Assembly (NCBI GenBank): GCA_943330235.2
Contig: CALQGY020000009.1
Span: 1 to 57,472, forward strand
From: Candidatus Kuenenia stuttgartensis
GTDB lineage: Bacteria > Gemmatimonadota > Gemmatimonadetes > Gemmatimonadales > Gemmatimonadaceae
Direction: 5' to 3'
DNA: 57,472 nucleotides
The notes beneath the pieces are model-generated. The model did not search any database, was not told where the DNA came from, and saw nothing but the letters and a program-made list of their open reading frames with translations. Every line of letters starts with the position of its first letter. Positions within the stretch are counted from its first letter, which is position 1. This document shows, piece after piece, positions 37,223 to 45,348 of this stretch. The translations under genes were made by a program, and so were the position numbers.

Positions 37223-37375
37223 TCAGTCTTTGGCGCGCCCCAGAAAGCGCAGGACGAGTGCAATGGCCACACAGCCAATGCCGACCCACCGCGCGATTTC
37301 ATTCTCGTTACGCATGGCGAACGCGAACGCGGCGATCCCCACGATCAGCAACGCCAGCCGCACCCGCAATATCAT
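37223..37375 (-). CDS. 50-residue membrane protein with two hydrophobic helices
   Basis: Starts MILRVRLALLIVG and ends RFLGRAKD. Two hydrophobic segments (about 5-20 and 30-44) flank a polar turn, MRNENEIARW. The ATG overlaps the stop of the AtuA C-terminal gene (ATGA), which strongly supports translation. It is basic at both ends, as expected for a cytoplasmic-ends hairpin. I recognise no family, and function is unknown. It is too short for most automatic ORF cut-offs. Confidence 0.65.
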   Translation of the reverse strand: MILRVRLALLIVGIAAFAFAMRNENEIARWVGIGCVAIALVLRFLGRAKD

Positions 37376-37734
37376 GCGGCGGCCGGATGCGCTGGGAGCG
37401 CGAGCGCGTGCGCGACGTCATCAGGTACATCGATGATCATGCGCAGGAGCGCGGTGGAATAGACCTTGCCCTGCGCGTCGGTCTTGAGCGACAGCGTCCC
37501 GCCGCCGTCCAACGCCCCGTGCAGGAGAAAATTGAGCGCGCCGAGGTTGGGGAGTTCGAAGCGAACCACATCCCCGTTGATCTGACCGGCGAAATGCTGC
37601 GCAACGCGCTCGCGCGTCACATACGTGGCGAGCACGTCATACCATTCGGGCCTGAGGGCGATGAGACCAACATTGGCCGTGTCGCCCTTGTCGCCGCTGC
37701 GCGCGTGGGCGATGTCGAGTAAACGAACGTGCAT
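37372..37734 (-). CDS. AtuA C-terminal-like domain protein
   Basis: 120 residues. The N-terminus LLDIAHARSGDKGDTANVGLIA matches the small domain that in some bacteria is fused to the C-terminus of AtuA (acyclic terpene utilisation). FELPNLGALNFLLHGALDGGG is the second recognisable block. Here it is a separate gene five bases after AtuA, so the two probably form a complex. The reaction of AtuA proteins is not established; they occur beside acyl-CoA carboxylases. Confidence 0.82.
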   Translation of the reverse strand: MHVRLLDIAHARSGDKGDTANVGLIALRPEWYDVLATYVTRERVAQHFAGQINGDVVRFELPNLGALNFLLHGALDGGGTLSLKTDAQGKVYSTALLRMIIDVPDDVAHALALPAHPAAA

Positions 37735-37739
37735 GGCGA

Positions 37740-39134
37740 CTACTCCAGGATGCGAACAGCGGTGGACACGGCGCGCTTATCGAGCAGCGCGGGCCAATAC
37801 GCGACGATTTCTTCAACCTTCGGTCGCCCACCGGCAAAGCCGGTGACGCTTGGCGGACCATTAAGCACCAGCGGAACGATCTCGCGCGTGAAGCGCTCGA
37901 CCGCGGCACGGTCCTCGCCGCGCACGCCGATGCGGAACTGCACTTCCGGCGCGTCGCGACCATCGCCGGCGAGTGCGCCGTGCGTCGAGGTGGCGCCGAC
38001 GAACTCGGTCAGGATCTGATCGAACTTGAGACCAAGATTGTCGAGCCGTTCGCGGAGGACGCGATCGGCCAGCTGCGCCTTCTCCATGGCGTCCGGCCAC
38101 GAGTAGACGAGCGATCCAACGGCCTTGTAGCCCGCGCGATAGGCGATGGAGACCTTGAGGAACGGCGTCGGCGGTCCACCGGTGATCCCGTGGACGCGCA
38201 CACGATTCTCGCCGTCCGGCGCCACGCGGATGCTCGTGAAGTCGGCCACCACGTCGGGCGTGATGTACGCATTCGGATCGCCCATCTCGTACACGAGCTG
38301 TTCGGTCACGCTCGGGACGGACACGCGACCGCCGGTACCCGGATGCTTCGTGATCACAAAGGTGCCATCGCTGCGCGCTTCCGCGATGGGGTATCCAACG
38401 TTCGCGAGATCGGGGATGTTGCGCCAATCGTAGAGACAATTGCCGCCGGAGCTCTGCGCACCGCACTCGAGAATGTGTCCCGCGATGATACCGGCGGCCA
38501 GGCGATCCCAATCATCGGCAGCCCAGCCGAACTCATGTCGCAACGGCGCCATGGTGAGAGCGGTGTCCGTACTGCGCCCGGTCACGACGACGTTGGCGCC
38601 CTGCTGCAGGGCCTCCACGATGGGCGTGGACCCGATGTACGCGTTGGCCGAGAGCACGCGATCGCGGATGGTGCTGAGCGGAGCGCCCGTATCCATGTTC
38701 GCGAGCAGGTGCCCCGCCGCCATCAGTTCATCGAGGCGATCCAGGACGTCATCACCCGAAACGACGCCCACGCGAATCCGTCCGCGCACACCATTCTTGC
38801 TGGCCGCTTCGAGCACGGCGTCGGCGCAGGCGGCCGGATTCACGCCACCGGCATTCGCGATGACTTTGACCCCGCGATCGGCGACGGCGGGAAAGATACT
38901 TTCCATCGCGCCGATGAAGTCGCGCGCGTATCCCATGCGCGGATCGCGCTCTTTCTGCTTCTGGAGGATCGACATCGTGACTTCGGCCAGGTAGTCGAGC
39001 ATCAGGTAATCCACCTGACCACCTTCCACCTGACGACGCGGCGCTTCCAGCCAGTCGCCCCAGAAACCTTGCCCGCTGGCGACACGGACCACGCGCGCGG
39101 CGTCGTCCGGCGCACTCCTGTTGCTCTCACTCAT
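37740..39134 (-). CDS. Acyclic terpene utilisation AtuA family protein
   Basis: 464 residues. The family segments [52 protein letters not shown] and [12 protein letters not shown] are clear. In Pseudomonas AtuA belongs to a citronellol/geraniol degradation cluster with the geranyl-CoA carboxylase AtuC/AtuF, but many bacteria without that pathway carry it next to a carboxyltransferase, as here. GGTGGAG lies upstream of the ATG. It follows the carboxyltransferase by 37 bases. Its biochemical role is not known to me. Confidence 0.85.
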
Positions 39135-39171: not shown

Positions 39172-40785
39172 TCAAACCGATGCCGTCGGCATTGGTGGCA
39201 ACACGAAGGCCCCGAGGTGCGGACCGGGATTGCGGCTCGCCGCGCGTAACGCGAGCGCGAGATGCGAGCGGGTGTCTTCCGGATACAGGATCGCGTCGGC
39301 AAAGCCACGCGCCGCTGCGTACCGAGCGTCCAGTTGATGTTCGTAATCGGCGCGCATCGCGTCAACGGCCTGCGTCACCTCAGCCGATGGCGCGCCGCCC
39401 GCCACACGCGCGGCGTCCAGCGCGGGGCCGTGAACGGCCTGCACGGCGGCGGCACCTTCCATCACCGCCATGCGGCCGGTGGGCCACGTAAAGATGAAGT
39501 CCGGGTCGAACCCCTGACCGGCCATCGCGTAGTAACCCGCGCCACTCGCGTGGTTGACCGTCAGGACAATTTTGGGGACACGCGCACACGCCATGGCTTC
39601 GACGAAGTGCGCACCGGCGCGAATGATGCCTTCGTGTTCGGCCTCCGGACCCACCATGAATCCGGATACATCTTGCACGAAGAGCAACGGAATGCCTTGA
39701 CGGTCACACCGCTCGATGAAGAACGCGACCTTCTCGGCGCTCTCCGCGTAGATGATGCCGCCGAACCGCGGCTTCTCGCCTTCGCGCCCCTTGATCAGAC
39801 CGCGCTGATTGGCGATCACACCCACCGTCATCCCTTCGATGCGCGCGTCGCCGCAGATCATTTCCTTGGCGAGATTCGGCTGGAACTCGTCGAGCTCCCC
39901 ATCGTCCAGCACGGTGCGCAACAGTGCATGCATGTCGTAGGACATGCGATGATCGTTGGGCAGTAACTCATACAATTTTTGCGGCGGCTCCGCGGGCGGG
40001 CGGTGCGTGGGCGCGTCGTGCTCGCGCGGACGCGGGAGCCGTGCGACCAAATCACGCAGCTTGTTCAGGCACGCCGTGTCGTCATCGACCGCGTAATGTG
40101 CCACGGCCGAGACCTCGGTGTGCGTCACGGCGCCGCCCAGCGTTTCGCCATCGACGGTTTGACCGGTCGCGCCCTTCACGAGATTCGGCCCGCCCAACCC
40201 CATGAACGAGGATCCCTTCACCATGAGGATCACGTCGCTCAGCGCCGGCAGGTACGCACCGCCAGCGACGCACTGCCCCATCACAGCCGCCAGCTGCGGG
40301 ATGCGCAGATAGCGACGCATGATGGAGTTGTAGTAGAAAATGCGCGCCGCCCCATACTGTCCGGGAAACACACCGCCCTGATACGGGAGGTTCACGCCGG
40401 CGGAATCGACCAAATAGATGATCGGAATGCGACAGCGCATCGCGATCTCCTGAGCCCGCAGAATCTTGGTGATCGTCTCGGGCCACCACGAGCCCGCTTT
40501 CACGGTGGCATCGTTCGCGACCACGACCACTTCACGCCCTTCGACTACGGCGACCCCGGTGATGACACCGGCGCCGGGGGCCTGTCCATCATACTGATCG
40601 TAGGCGACCAGTAAGCCGATCTCGAGGAACGGCGTCCCCGGGTCCCGCAGGCCTTCGACGCGCTCACGGGCCGTGAGCTTGCCCTGCGCATGCTGCTTCT
40701 TGATGCGCTCCGCCCCGCCCCCTTCACGTAGCGTCGCCTCAAGCGCGCGGAACTCGTCGGCGAGCTGTTTCAGCCGACTGCTCAC
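39172..40785 (-). CDS. Acyl-CoA carboxylase carboxyltransferase (beta) subunit
   Basis: It transfers carboxyl from biotin to an acyl-CoA. 537 residues. Both crotonase-like halves are present: the N-terminal half with [14 protein letters not shown] and [15 protein letters not shown], and the C-terminal half with [19 protein letters not shown] and [13 protein letters not shown]. The sequence is closest in style to methylcrotonyl-CoA or geranyl-CoA carboxylase beta subunits. No biotin carboxylase or biotin carrier gene is in the window. The GTG start overlaps the B12-subunit stop (GTGA), linking it to the mutase. Confidence 0.9.
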
Positions 40786-41195
40786 GCGTCCTGCTGTTCG
40801 CGGGCCGCGAACCATTGGCGAATGTAATCCACCAGATCCTGCGTGCTGGTGCCGGGACCGAACAGGCGCGCCACGCCGCGCGCGCTGAGCGCCTCCATGT
40901 CTTCCTTTGGGATGATGCCGCCGCCGGTCAGCAGAATGTCATCGCGACCGGCCTCCACGAGCAGGTCCCGCACGCGTGGAAACAGCGTCATATGCGCACC
41001 GCTCAGGATCGAGAGCCCGACGACATCGACGTCTTCCTGGATGGCAGCGGTGGCAATCATTTCCGGCGTCTGATGCAGGCCGGTATAGATCACTTCCATG
41101 CCCGCGTCACGGAGCGCGGCGGCAACGACTTTAGCGCCACGATCATGACCATCAAGGCCAGGCTTGGCGACGAGCACACGGATAGGTCGGGTCAT
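40782..41195 (-). CDS. Cobalamin-binding small subunit of an acyl-CoA mutase
   Basis: 137 residues, a stand-alone B12-binding domain. Asp15-x-His17-x-x-Gly20 (LDGHDRG) supplies the lower-axial His ligand, and SILSGAH and LTGGGIIP are the other B12-domain motifs. It partners the large subunit at 42527, from which it is separated by a methyltransferase gene and the plus-strand BLUF gene. It is coupled downstream to the carboxyltransferase (GTGA). Confidence 0.93.
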
Positions 41196-41237: not shown

Positions 41238-41993
41238 TTACGGTTCACGTCGGGCGATGAGCAGCATCTCGCCGGATCGCCGACCGAGCGGCCGAGGCGA
41301 CCACGCGTCGAAGGCCTGCTCTACCACCAGGCCGACCTCGCGCATCCGCGCGGCAAGCTCGGAGGCGGTGTACAGTCGAATGCGGTGGGTCCGCTCGCCC
41401 TCGCCGGTGGGGCCGCGCCACGTCGAGGTGATTTCGAGAAAGCCACTGAGGGGGTCGAACGAGCGTTCCTGCCCCCACATAGTGCCGTCCGCAGTGCTCC
41501 ACCAGTCGCGGTGGAGGAATTTGGCCATCACGCCGTCGCGGCTACCGCCGTGCCAGATCAGCACTCCACCCGGCTTGAGGACGCGCGCAAATTCGCCAAG
41601 AACTTTCAGGTCATCGCCCGGGTCGTCAAAGAATCCGAACGACGTGAACAGGTTGACGACGGCATCGAAGCGGCGCGTCCAACGCGAGGGCAGCTTTCGC
41701 ATGTCGCCCTGCGAATAGCGGAGCGACGCAGACGTGCCACGTGCCCGCGCCACATCCAGTAAGGTCTCGGAGTAATCCAGTCCATCGACGAGAAACCCGG
41801 CCTCGGCCAAGAGATGCGCGTGCCGCCCCTGACCGCAGGGGCAGTCGAGCACGCGGGCGCCGGAGGGCAGCTCCAGCAGCTCGAGCAGACGCGCGACTTC
41901 CTTCCGATCTTGGACGAGATCGAACAAGGGTTCGTATTCGTGCAGATATCCCGCATCGAAATGTGTCGCCCACCAGGGGGTATTCGTCTTCAT
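41238..41993 (-). CDS. Class I SAM-dependent methyltransferase
   Basis: 251 residues. Motif I is VLDCPCGQGRHA (about 48-59), the acidic end of beta-2 is LVDGLDYS, and later motifs are FDAVVNLFTSFGFF and VLKPGGVLIW. Substrate unknown. It is 42 bases upstream of the B12-binding subunit and probably in the same transcript, and it is divergent from BLUF. Confidence 0.85.
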   Translation of the reverse strand: MKTNTPWWATHFDAGYLHEYEPLFDLVQDRKEVARLLELLELPSGARVLDCPCGQGRHAHLLAEAGFLVDGLDYSETLLDVARARGTSASLRYSQGDMRKLPSRWTRRFDAVVNLFTSFGFFDDPGDDLKVLGEFARVLKPGGVLIWHGGSRDGVMAKFLHRDWWSTADGTMWGQERSFDPLSGFLEITSTWRGPTGEGERTHRIRLYTASELAARMREVGLVVEQAFDAWSPRPLGRRSGEMLLIARREP

Positions 41994-42092: not shown

Positions 42093-42530
42093 ATGCATAA
42101 CATCCGATTGATCTATGCGAGTGAAGCGCAGCCCGGTCTGCCCTATCCGGACCTGACACGACTCCTCGTGCGCGCGCGCGCGCACAACACGTCGGAGGCC
42201 ATCACCGGCATCCTGTGCTACGGCTCCGGATTGTTCCTTCAGGCCATCGAAGGAAGGCGTACGGCCGTGAACACGCTGTATCACTCCATCGCCCGCGACG
42301 AGCGCCACGGGGCATGCCAACTGATGTCGGTGGAGGAAATCGACACGCGCGTGTTCGGGGAATGGTCGATGAAGCTGGTGGGATGGGACGACGTCGCGAC
42401 CGAGAACCGGCGGCGGATTCTGCACCGCCACTCCGGTTCGACGATCTTCGATCCGCGGGAGATGACCGGCCCCCAAGCGCTGGAATTCCTTCGCGAGCTC
42501 GCGGAGAGCGAACGCTTGTCGGCCGCTTAG
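42093..42530 (+). CDS. BLUF-domain blue-light sensor protein
   Basis: A flavin-binding photoreceptor of 145 residues, essentially one BLUF domain (1-97) plus a short helical C-terminus with no output domain. The key photocycle residues are all present: Tyr8 (LIYAS), Asn32 and Gln50 ([19 protein letters not shown]), Trp91 and Met93 ([10 protein letters not shown]). AGGA lies upstream of the ATG. It is a lone plus-strand gene within a minus-strand locus, and its TAG overlaps the TAA of the mutase large subunit. A short BLUF protein would act through a partner, which cannot be named from sequence. Confidence 0.92.
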
Positions 42531-44221
42531 AAGAACACGGGTTCGCGATACGCGCCGAAGACATCTTCGAGCGCGGCGCGAATTTCGTACAACGTGCAGT
42601 AGGCGCGCGCGCAGTCCAAGATGAACGGCACGACGTTGGTCTCGCCCCGCGCCGCGACGCGCAGCGCGTCCAGGCGCGTGGCGACGAGCGCGTTGTCGCG
42701 AGACGCGCGCATGTCGGCCATGCGCTGACGCTGTTCGCGATCCGCCTCCTCACCGATGCGCAGAATCGGAATGCCAAGTTCCGGCTCGTCCGTGACGAAC
42801 TCGTTGACGCCCACCACAAGCCGGCGGCGCTGCTCGATCTCCCACTGCTGCCGTGCCGCGCTCTCCGCGATGCGCTTCTGGAACCACCCCTCCTCCAGCC
42901 CCTTGACCACGCCGCCGATCTCGTTGATCTGCGCAAACAGCGCCTCGGCTTCGGCCTCGAGCTGGTCCGTCAGCGCTTCGACGTAATACGAGCCGCCTAA
43001 CGGATCCATCACGTTCGGCACGCCGGTCTCGTACGCCAGGACCTGCTGCGTGCGGAGCGCGACTTGCACCGCGGACTCGGTGGGCAACGAGAGCGTTTCG
43101 TCCATGGAGTTCGTGTGCAGCGACTGCGTACCGCCCAGCACCGCGGCGAGCCCTTGATACGCGACGCGCACGACGTTGTTCATCGGCTGCTGCGCGGTGA
43201 GCGTGACGCCGGCCGTCTGCGAGTGAAAGCGCATCATCCATGAGCGCGGATTCTTCGCGCCGAACCGCTCCTTCATGTGACGCGCCCAGATGCGTCGTGC
43301 GGCACGCAGCTTGGCGATCTCTTCGAAGAAATCGTTATGGATGTCCCAGAAGAACGACAGGCGCGGCGCAAACTCATCGACGTCGAGGCCACGGGCGACG
43401 CCGCGCTCGACATATGTGAAGCCGTCGGCCAGCGTGAACGCCAATTCCTGCGCCGCGGTGGATCCTGCTTCGCGAATGTGATAGCCCGAAATGGAAATGG
43501 TATTCCAATTCGGCGCGTGCTCAGCACACCACGCGAAACCATCCACGATCAGGCGCAGCGCCGGCTCGATGGGGAAGCACCAGGCATGCTGCGCCATGTA
43601 CTCCTTCAGGATGTCATTCTGCACGGTCCCCTGCAGCTTGGAGGCCGGAATGCCCTTCTTCTCGGCGGCCGCGATGTAGAAGCAGAGCAGAATGATGGCA
43701 GGCCCATTGATCGTCATGGACGTCGAGACCTGATCGAGCGGAATCCCCTCGAACAGGGTCTCCATGTCGGCCAGCGAGGAAATCGCAACGCCGCACTTAC
43801 CGACCTCGCCTTCGGACCGGATGTGATCGGAGTCGTAGCCCATCAGCGTCGGAAAGTCGAACGCCACCGACAGACCGGTCTGGCCTTGTGAGAGCAGGAA
43901 CTTGTAGCGCTGATTGGTCTCCCGGGCCGTGCCGAAGCCCGCGAACTGCCGCATCGTCCACAGCTTGCCGCGGTAGCCGGTGGGGTGGATGCCGCGCGTG
44001 AAGGGCCACTGCCCGGGTAGTTCAAACGCCGTGCCGGCCGAATTTTCAAGGTCGAGCGCGGTGTACAGCGGCGCGACTTCGGTGGCCGAGTTGGTGTACG
44101 CGACATCGCGCTTGCGACCACTCTCATACTGCCCACGCCACGCGCCGACCTCCTCGCGCAACCGGTCGAGTTCGGCCTGTTGCTGGCGTACCACGTCTTC
44201 GAGTTCGCTGATCGTTGTCAT
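42527..44221 (-). CDS. AdoCbl-dependent acyl-CoA mutase large subunit (methylmalonyl-/isobutyryl-CoA mutase family)
   Basis: It rearranges the carbon skeleton of an acyl-CoA with adenosylcobalamin bound by a separate small subunit. 564 residues, the catalytic TIM-barrel half only. [34 protein letters not shown] and [18 protein letters not shown] are conserved; His248 is the catalytic-site His. Phe93 and Gln211 occupy the positions that are Tyr89/Arg207 in methylmalonyl-CoA mutase and Phe80/Gln198 in isobutyryl-CoA mutase, so isobutyryl-/butyryl-CoA is the better guess. The ATG overlaps the meaB stop (ATGA). Confidence 0.9.
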
Positions 44222-45348
44222 GATGCTGTTCCCTGGAGAAGTGCCGCGTTGGACACATGCACGGCGCCAACCAAGAGCGCCTCGCTGCGTGCGCGAAGCG
44301 CATCGGCGACCGCGAAGGGCGCGATCGTACCGGCTTCGAGCAGAGGCAGCTGTCCTTCCAGCCACGAAAGCGTCTCCTGATCGTGCCAGAGGCGCTGCTT
44401 GATCTGTTGTTCCACCACTTCCATCACCCGCTCGCGGAGACGTTGCAGCCGCCGCACCCGTAATTCACCACTGGACACGAGATACCGAAAGTGCCGATCG
44501 AGCGCATCGACAAGCTCGCTCAGCCCCTCGCCCTGCGCGGCCACGCTGCGCAGGACCGGCGGGGTCCACGTCTCCGGCGCCTCCTCCATACCCGCAGCCC
44601 GTGCCGCTCGGGCCGGGTTGAGCGCATTGCGCATCGCGTCCCGATCCACCATCGCTGATAGGTCTACGCCGTGGTGGGCTGGGACGTTCGACGCGGCACC
44701 GGCACGCAAGCCGAGCATCAACTCGATGTCATTGCGCAAGCGGTCGGCCCCAGGACGATCCGCCTTATTCACAGTGAAGACATCCGCGATCTCCATGACA
44801 CCGGCCTTGAGGGTCTGGATCGAGTCGCCCGACTCAGGGACCAGCACGACGAGGGTCGTGTCCGCGGCCCGCGAGATATCCAGTTCACTCTGCCCGACAC
44901 CAACCGTCTCGAGCAGGATGACGTCCATGCCGAACCCATCGAGCACGTCGCAGACCTCGCGCGTGGCGGTGGCCAACCCACCGAGCGAGCCGCGTGTGGC
45001 CATGGACCGGATGAAGACGCCAGGGTCCAGCGCCACCTCTTCCATTCGAATGCGATCGCCGAGCAGTGCCCCGCCCGTGAACGGCGACGTGGGATCGACG
45101 GCGACGATGCCGACCGTCAGCCCTTGGTTTCGGTATGCGCGGGCGAGTCGTGTGGTGAGGGTGCTTTTCCCGGCGCCCGGCGGTCCGGTGATGCCGATGC
45201 GACGCGCCCGTCCGAGATCCGGATGGATCGTGGCGAGCAGCTGATCGAATCCGGGCCGGTGGTTCTCGACAATGCTGACGGCGCGCGCCAATGCCGCGCT
45301 TTTGCCCGCGCGGAATCCGAGCATCACGCGCTCAAGCGCCGTGCTCAT
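44218..45348 (-). CDS. meaB: MeaB/ArgK-type G-protein chaperone of the acyl-CoA mutase
   Basis: A GTPase that gates cofactor loading and protects B12 mutases. 376 residues. P-loop GPPGAGKST (55-63), ETVGVGQSE (switch region) and NKAD (base recognition) are present. It is coupled by ATGA overlaps both to the mutase large subunit downstream and to the CNNM/CBS gene upstream. Confidence 0.94.

Follow-up and report, generated by a model that had tools for sequence, protein, structure and literature searches.

Isobutyryl-CoA mutase of Streptomyces cinnamonensis consists of a large subunit, IcmA, and a separate B12 subunit, IcmB, and IcmA carries Phe80 and Gln198 at the two specificity positions. 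In the fused enzyme IcmF (Cupriavidus metallidurans, 4xc6), the B12, G-protein and mutase domains lie in one chain, whereas 2-hydroxyisobutyryl-CoA mutase (HCM; HcmA/HcmB, 4r3u; Methylibium) has a split architecture. Methylmalonyl-CoA mutase (MCM; ScpA, MutB) belongs to the same superfamily, uses the same B12 chemistry and binds the substrate carboxylate through a Tyr and an Arg. According to Jost et al., as quoted in a passage of PMC7238569, two positions separate the acyl-CoA mutases, the sites singled out being Tyr and Arg in MCM. A passage of PMC9974510 further states that IcmF also interconverts pivalyl- and isovaleryl-CoA.

The window (the whole 57,472-nucleotide stretch of DNA that was analysed) carries a mutase locus that resembles IcmA/IcmB in having a large subunit with Phe and Gln at these positions and a separate B12 subunit. 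It differs from IcmA/IcmB in its occurrence in Gemmatimonadota, in the clustering of MeaB, mutase, B12 subunit, carboxylase and AtuA genes, and in a small subunit that is seemingly common to an MCM large subunit. IcmF has Phe and Gln in the same columns and occupies the role of the window gene in 17 genomes, but what IcmF joins in one chain is here distributed over three genes, and the IcmF equivalog model scores 336 bits here, of the 1500 required. HcmA/HcmB offers the nearest solved structure, although HCM has Ile and Asp where the window protein has Phe93 and Ala120. The Tyr/Arg carboxylate site of MCM, present in ScpA, MutB and a paralogue on contig C26 of the same genome, is missing from the window protein.

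Substrate-site residues of the mutase large subunit

The large subunit, an acyl-CoA mutase of 564 amino acids assigned to the isobutyryl-CoA mutase type, is encoded on the minus strand at 42527–44221, stop codon included (ATG at 44221, stop at 42527–42529, coding sequence without the stop 42530–44221). It is matched by PF01642 and TIGR00641, each at 745 bits, and contains the conserved stretch [11 protein letters not shown]. By position from that ATG, and by alignment, the Phe93 codon (43943–43945, minus strand) falls at the site of MCM Tyr89 and the Gln211 codon (43589–43591, minus strand) at that of MCM Arg207. In the translation, Phe93 lies within [12 protein letters not shown] and Gln211 within [15 protein letters not shown]; position 120 is Ala.

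Among the best five PDB matches obtained with phmmer, Phe93 and Gln211 stand opposite the Tyr and Arg of human MCM (2xij, 8gju) and of the 6oxc MCM, and opposite the Ile and Gln of the HCM 4r3u. Chain 5req_A, also aligned by phmmer, has Phe at the Phe93 site; 5req, which we take to be the Tyr89Phe mutant of Propionibacterium MCM, thereby agrees with the Tyr89 numbering of the original prediction. A MAFFT alignment with named references gave Tyr/Arg in E. coli ScpA, in the Ilyobacter and Halopenitus proteins and in three Streptomyces plasmid homologues, Phe/Gln in a Deinococcus plasmid homologue, and Ile/Gln together with Asp in the Ala120 column in the Methylibium protein (L053) and Xaut_5021. 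The last of these had been considered as a possible pivalyl-CoA mutase and was set aside as HCM-like. Xaut_5043, presumably the Xanthobacter pivalyl-CoA mutase, has Leu at the Phe93 site and a residue other than Gln at the second, poorly aligned site, a combination that differs from the Phe and Gln of the window protein. An AlphaFold2 model of the mutase built from 17 rows reached a mean pLDDT of 65.9, with stretches below 50 that include residues 35–94 and 211–213, so the equivalence of the two sites rests on sequence alignment.

Conservation was assessed on distinct sequences, defined as those differing in their last 400 residues, from unnamed and named genomes. Phe/Gln with Ala at 120 was present in 150/150 sequences more than 60% identical to the large subunit, a set selected by similarity to the large subunit or to its orthologue L050. 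By contrast, all 60 paralogues at 45–60% identity, the second mutase of the same genome included, had Tyr/Arg with Ala at 120; this count includes two MutB chains from two genomes and leaves aside reference rows L052–L061 and the rows below 45% that are not Phe/Gln (MutA chains, without these motifs). The Phe/Gln pair is thus not a chance feature of one sequence. In a tree of 48 rows, built with a quick method without bootstrap, the Phe/Gln set of the window type formed a separate clade (SH-aLRT 99) and the Tyr/Arg proteins grouped with ScpA and MutB (SH-aLRT 93), with IcmF on a very long branch apart from both.

The second mutase of the same genome (G000:C26:21427-22926) is 55% identical to the window protein, has Tyr/Arg and ends without a B12 domain; judged from its sequence, it is the genome's own, separate enzyme for the methylmalonyl-CoA reaction. 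In our sample of 298 genomes of the phylum, the window protein was matched in 287 and the Tyr/Arg paralogue, at E 1e-190, in 261. Collectively, the PDB matches, the MAFFT alignment and the conservation counts confirm the original prediction that Phe93 and Gln211 sit where MCM has Tyr and Arg; the references by which it proposed to check this (MCM, HCM and pivalyl-CoA mutase), aligned here by sequence, left Phe and Gln, with no Tyr or Arg, at the two sites. Its assertion that a plain MCM label would be wrong was likewise supported, as PF01642 and TIGR00641 assign that label by homology only and both specificity positions contradict it.

Gene neighbourhood and metabolic context

The mutase start overlaps by 4 bases the gene of the G-protein chaperone MeaB (44218–45348, minus strand; PF03308, TIGR00750 334 bits). 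Downstream on the same strand lie a class I SAM methyltransferase gene (41238–41993, PF13649), the B12-binding small subunit (40782–41195), an acyl-CoA carboxylase beta subunit (39172–40815; PF01039, and, among the top-ranking PDB matches, AccD1 and methylcrotonyl-CoA carboxylase beta), an AtuA-family protein (37740–39134; PF07287 516 bits) and its ferredoxin-like partner (37372–37734; PF23544 100 bits). We compared this order with named loci, the best 80 of 585 from a contig scan and mostly titled as Gemmatimonad- taxa. MeaB was upstream on the same strand in all 71 of these 80 loci with more than 1.5 kb of upstream sequence. Among the 41 with at least 8 kb downstream, again from the best 80 of 585, that flank held the small subunit in 39, carboxylase beta in 39, AtuA in 36 and the ferredoxin-like partner in 31. 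A scan of two loci, L214 and L216, showed an enoyl-CoA hydratase gene next in order in both. No cobalamin riboswitch was detected in the window at the gathering score.

Three further genes of the region are recorded here as observations in their own right. The SAM methyltransferase gene separates the genes of the large and small mutase subunits in many loci of the same family. A BLUF blue-light sensor gene (42093–42530, plus strand) runs towards the 3′ end of the mutase gene and, across the loci examined, was seen in the window's own genus and in named loci 89–90% identical in the mutase (24 matches, some of them duplicate fetches); its neighbour is thus a B12 enzyme, and light sensitivity is a property of adenosylcobalamin. 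In family f2, the position of the large subunit and the small-subunit gene are separated by a baeRF release-factor-like gene (L161:10546-11670, L294:540-1730 and L295:6317-7516), with a PF18854 match in L161 and frames alike by eye in L294 and L295.

The neighbourhood as a whole points to branched-chain amino acid breakdown without telling valine from leucine; its carboxylase and AtuA members favour leucine over valine. The part in valine or branched fatty acid metabolism put forward in the original prediction may nonetheless apply. Methylmalonate-semialdehyde dehydrogenase was over the cut-off in 10/25 genomes, the window's own included, so the classical valine route is not clearly missing. 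3-Hydroxyisobutyrate dehydrogenase (HIBADH) was over the cut-off in 0/25 genomes, but the controls gave only 1/14, and PF16113 matched in 25/25 genomes and is non-specific. The idea that valine is degraded only by way of the mutase was dropped on these three results.

AtuA had no meaningful PDB match by sequence. Its AlphaFold2 model (pLDDT 83.6) matched citramalate lyase 9evf_A in Foldseek with a TM score of 0.73 and an E value of 2.7e-25, the only match below E 0.001. HMG-CoA lyase was over the family cut-off in 1/25 genomes (controls: matches in 14/14, of which 3 were over the cut-off), and the window's own genome gave no match to it. AtuA appears as an acetate-releasing lyase in a listing in PMC4847356. 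Taken with the structural model, this suggests that AtuA, together with its ferredoxin-like partner, may stand in for HMG-CoA lyase through an acetate-releasing cleavage of 3-hydroxy-3-methylglutaryl-CoA.

IcmF in place of the large subunit, and the probable partners of the small subunit

The best match to the large subunit was stronger than E 1e-190 in 251 of the 298 genomes and weaker in 36, and 11 genomes had none; this value served as the score cut for the window-type gene, the strongest Tyr/Arg match being 1.9e-186. A second search covered 35 of the 36 weak-match genomes, all except G272 (four matches, best 4.4e-186). Nine held fragments of the window type, interrupted at contig ends (G147, G286, G236, G179, G216, G238, G231, G274 and G053), which brings the genomes with the large-subunit gene, whole or in pieces and without IcmF, to 260. 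An open frame of 715–1495 amino acids aligning like IcmF was found in 17, and the IcmF equivalog model returned the same 17 of the 298 genomes and no other, 16 of them over its curated cut-off. Tyr/Arg-type matches only were present in G182, G122, G132, G280, G095 and G273 (the fragments of G095 and G273 read as Tyr type), G210 and G259 had a carboxyl-terminal piece resembling the window type, and G275 was ambiguous.

None of the 17 IcmF genomes yielded a window-type gene or piece in the second search. A hypergeometric value of 7.8e-18 for this zero overlap was set aside, having been computed with 261 genomes and with related genomes treated as independent. The IcmF genomes span 8 genera, and four of these (g1, g2, g7 and g70) hold both IcmF members and window-type members without IcmF, so that, provided the genera are natural groups, four or more separate replacements are likely. 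The IcmF genes of G107 (L294) and G148 (L295) are flanked by MeaB and by the baeRF-like frame found ahead of the small subunit, and run in the opposite direction; in relatives, for example L161, this slot holds the window-type gene. Both genomes belong to family f2, and this slot replacement may be one event. G026 and the single-contig genome G019 retain the cluster from MeaB through to the AtuA partner, except for the large-subunit gene; G019 has a Tyr/Arg mutase, IcmF and one small subunit.

All 20 distinct IcmF sequences and pieces had Phe/Gln in the same columns, in a mutase part about 37% identical to the large subunit. As a Tyr/Arg mutase stays beside IcmF in 14 of the 17 genomes, the methylmalonyl-CoA function is not what IcmF replaces. 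The replacement provides independent support, at the level of genome content, for isobutyryl-CoA as the probable substrate and, indirectly, for the predicted interconversion with butyryl-CoA: the isobutyryl-type reading of the original prediction gains from 17 genomes with IcmF in place of the large subunit and no genome found with both. As a separate observation, in G068 (L209/L300) and G069 (L292) both mutase systems are replaced, by IcmF and MutA/MutB, with the genes within one 19-kb stretch.

The small subunit (40782–41195, minus strand; 137 amino acids) is matched by TIGR00640 at 175 bits, has 2yxb and 4r3u_C as its best PDB matches and carries DGHDRG, the DxHxxG motif expected of the B12 subunit of a split isobutyryl-CoA mutase. 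It is the only one found in its genome (91.6% complete), and the 16 kb around the Tyr/Arg mutase on C26 contained none. At E 1e-15, a small-subunit match was present in 278/298 genomes, of which 260 had exactly one and 18 had two, leaving 20 with none. IcmF is present in 11 of the 18, where the second match may be the B12 domain of IcmF itself; the other seven genomes with two matches are G102, G119, G133, G168, G110, G154 and G223. The 20 genomes without a match comprise 11 without a mutase and nine, all drafts, with at least one large subunit (G124, G137, G043, G179, G216, G231, G060, G182 and G280). These nine count against a shared small subunit, unless gaps in the draft sequences account for them; G043 has a small-subunit piece at a contig end, and in G060 (97% complete) no small subunit was found within 5.7 kb beyond the mutase gene.

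Among the 14 single-contig genomes of the sample, 12 have both large subunits, and each of the 12 has one small subunit; the remaining two are G019 and G069, the latter with MutA, MutB and IcmF. A small-subunit match was present in all 14 IcmF genomes that keep the Tyr/Arg mutase, with an E value of 2e-57 or better in 13 and of 6.7e-35 in G279. G068, G069 and G288, which are without a Tyr/Arg orthologue, gave only weak B12 matches (7.5e-30 to 8.9e-33). Such values fit B12 domains that form part of other chains: the best match of G069, 7.5e-30, is at the level of such a domain, and the matches of G068 and G069 were read as such. The small subunit therefore follows the Tyr/Arg mutase across the IcmF genomes, though its gene adjoins the Phe/Gln one. 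From this genome content, we infer that the small subunit is probably not dedicated to the Phe/Gln large subunit and is shared with the Tyr/Arg one. A precedent is described in a passage of PMC5719088, in which ActD of the actinonin cluster, a mutase large subunit, has a small partner encoded at another site. A literature search for a small subunit common to two mutases found none, in a search narrow enough to say little.

Substrate, subunit sharing and meaning for the class

We consider it very probable that a split isobutyryl-CoA mutase dependent on adenosylcobalamin is encoded here, and that its small subunit also serves the Tyr/Arg mutase. In this model, the large subunit (42530–44221), the B12 subunit (40782–41195) and the loading chaperone MeaB (44218–45348) would constitute one split mutase; Phe93 and Gln211, in place of the carboxylate-binding Tyr and Arg, would favour isobutyryl-CoA as the substrate; and the same small subunit would partner the separate large subunit of a methylmalonyl-CoA mutase encoded elsewhere.

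Three other assignments were weighed against this one. An MCM with altered substrate residues, as the database label has it, could appeal to the 745-bit matches to PF01642 and TIGR00641 and to the 55% identity with the Tyr/Arg paralogue, but the invariance of Phe/Gln in 150/150 orthologues, the separate Tyr/Arg mutase in the genome and the persistence of that mutase beside IcmF in 14/17 genomes make it highly improbable. The substrate of ethylmalonyl-CoA mutase bears a carboxylate as well, and the lost Arg argues against that identity. For HCM, the best PDB match (4r3u, 555 bits) and the Gln common to both proteins have to be set against its Ile90, which is Phe here, and its Asp117, which is Ala in all 150 orthologues and which, in the numbering and role at the substrate-hydroxyl site that we assume for the 4r3u type, would define that specificity; we regard this identity as scarcely credible.

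A mutase acting mainly on pivalyl-CoA or isovaleryl-CoA and feeding a leucine route, beside a methylcrotonyl-CoA-type carboxylase, is unlikely. It would fit the carboxylase beta subunit, for which AccD1 and methylcrotonyl-CoA carboxylase beta rank high among the solved matches and which is found in 39 of the 41 eligible downstream flanks among the best 80 of 585 loci. Against it, the presumed pivalyl-CoA mutase Xaut_5043 carries Leu in place of the Phe and lacks Gln at the second site, where the alignment is poor. The IcmF that replaces the large subunit has this activity too, according to a passage of PMC9974510, but is named for its isobutyryl/butyryl activity. With about 37% identity and a place in a distant clade, IcmF may share these residues without sharing the substrate range, and by analogy with IcmF the isobutyryl-CoA mutase proposed here may have a side activity on pivalyl-CoA or isovaleryl-CoA.

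Extended to the whole class, it is quite likely that one B12 subunit acts as an interchangeable module for isobutyryl-CoA and methylmalonyl-CoA mutases, and that the former lost its large subunit to IcmF, whose architecture is different, on several occasions (in two genomes at the same gene position), after which the B12 subunit would serve the other partner. What seems new here is the one B12 small subunit for two mutases. The analysis corrects the homology label of a gene present in 260 of 292 sampled genomes of its class and gives the class a predicted route between straight and branched C4 acyl-CoA. The natural losses and replacements offer a system for studying what allows one B12 module to recognise two large subunits, and the same system suits the question of a G-protein chaperone that loads both mutases. 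The repeated replacement by IcmF also illustrates how a substrate can be suggested by comparative genomics alone.
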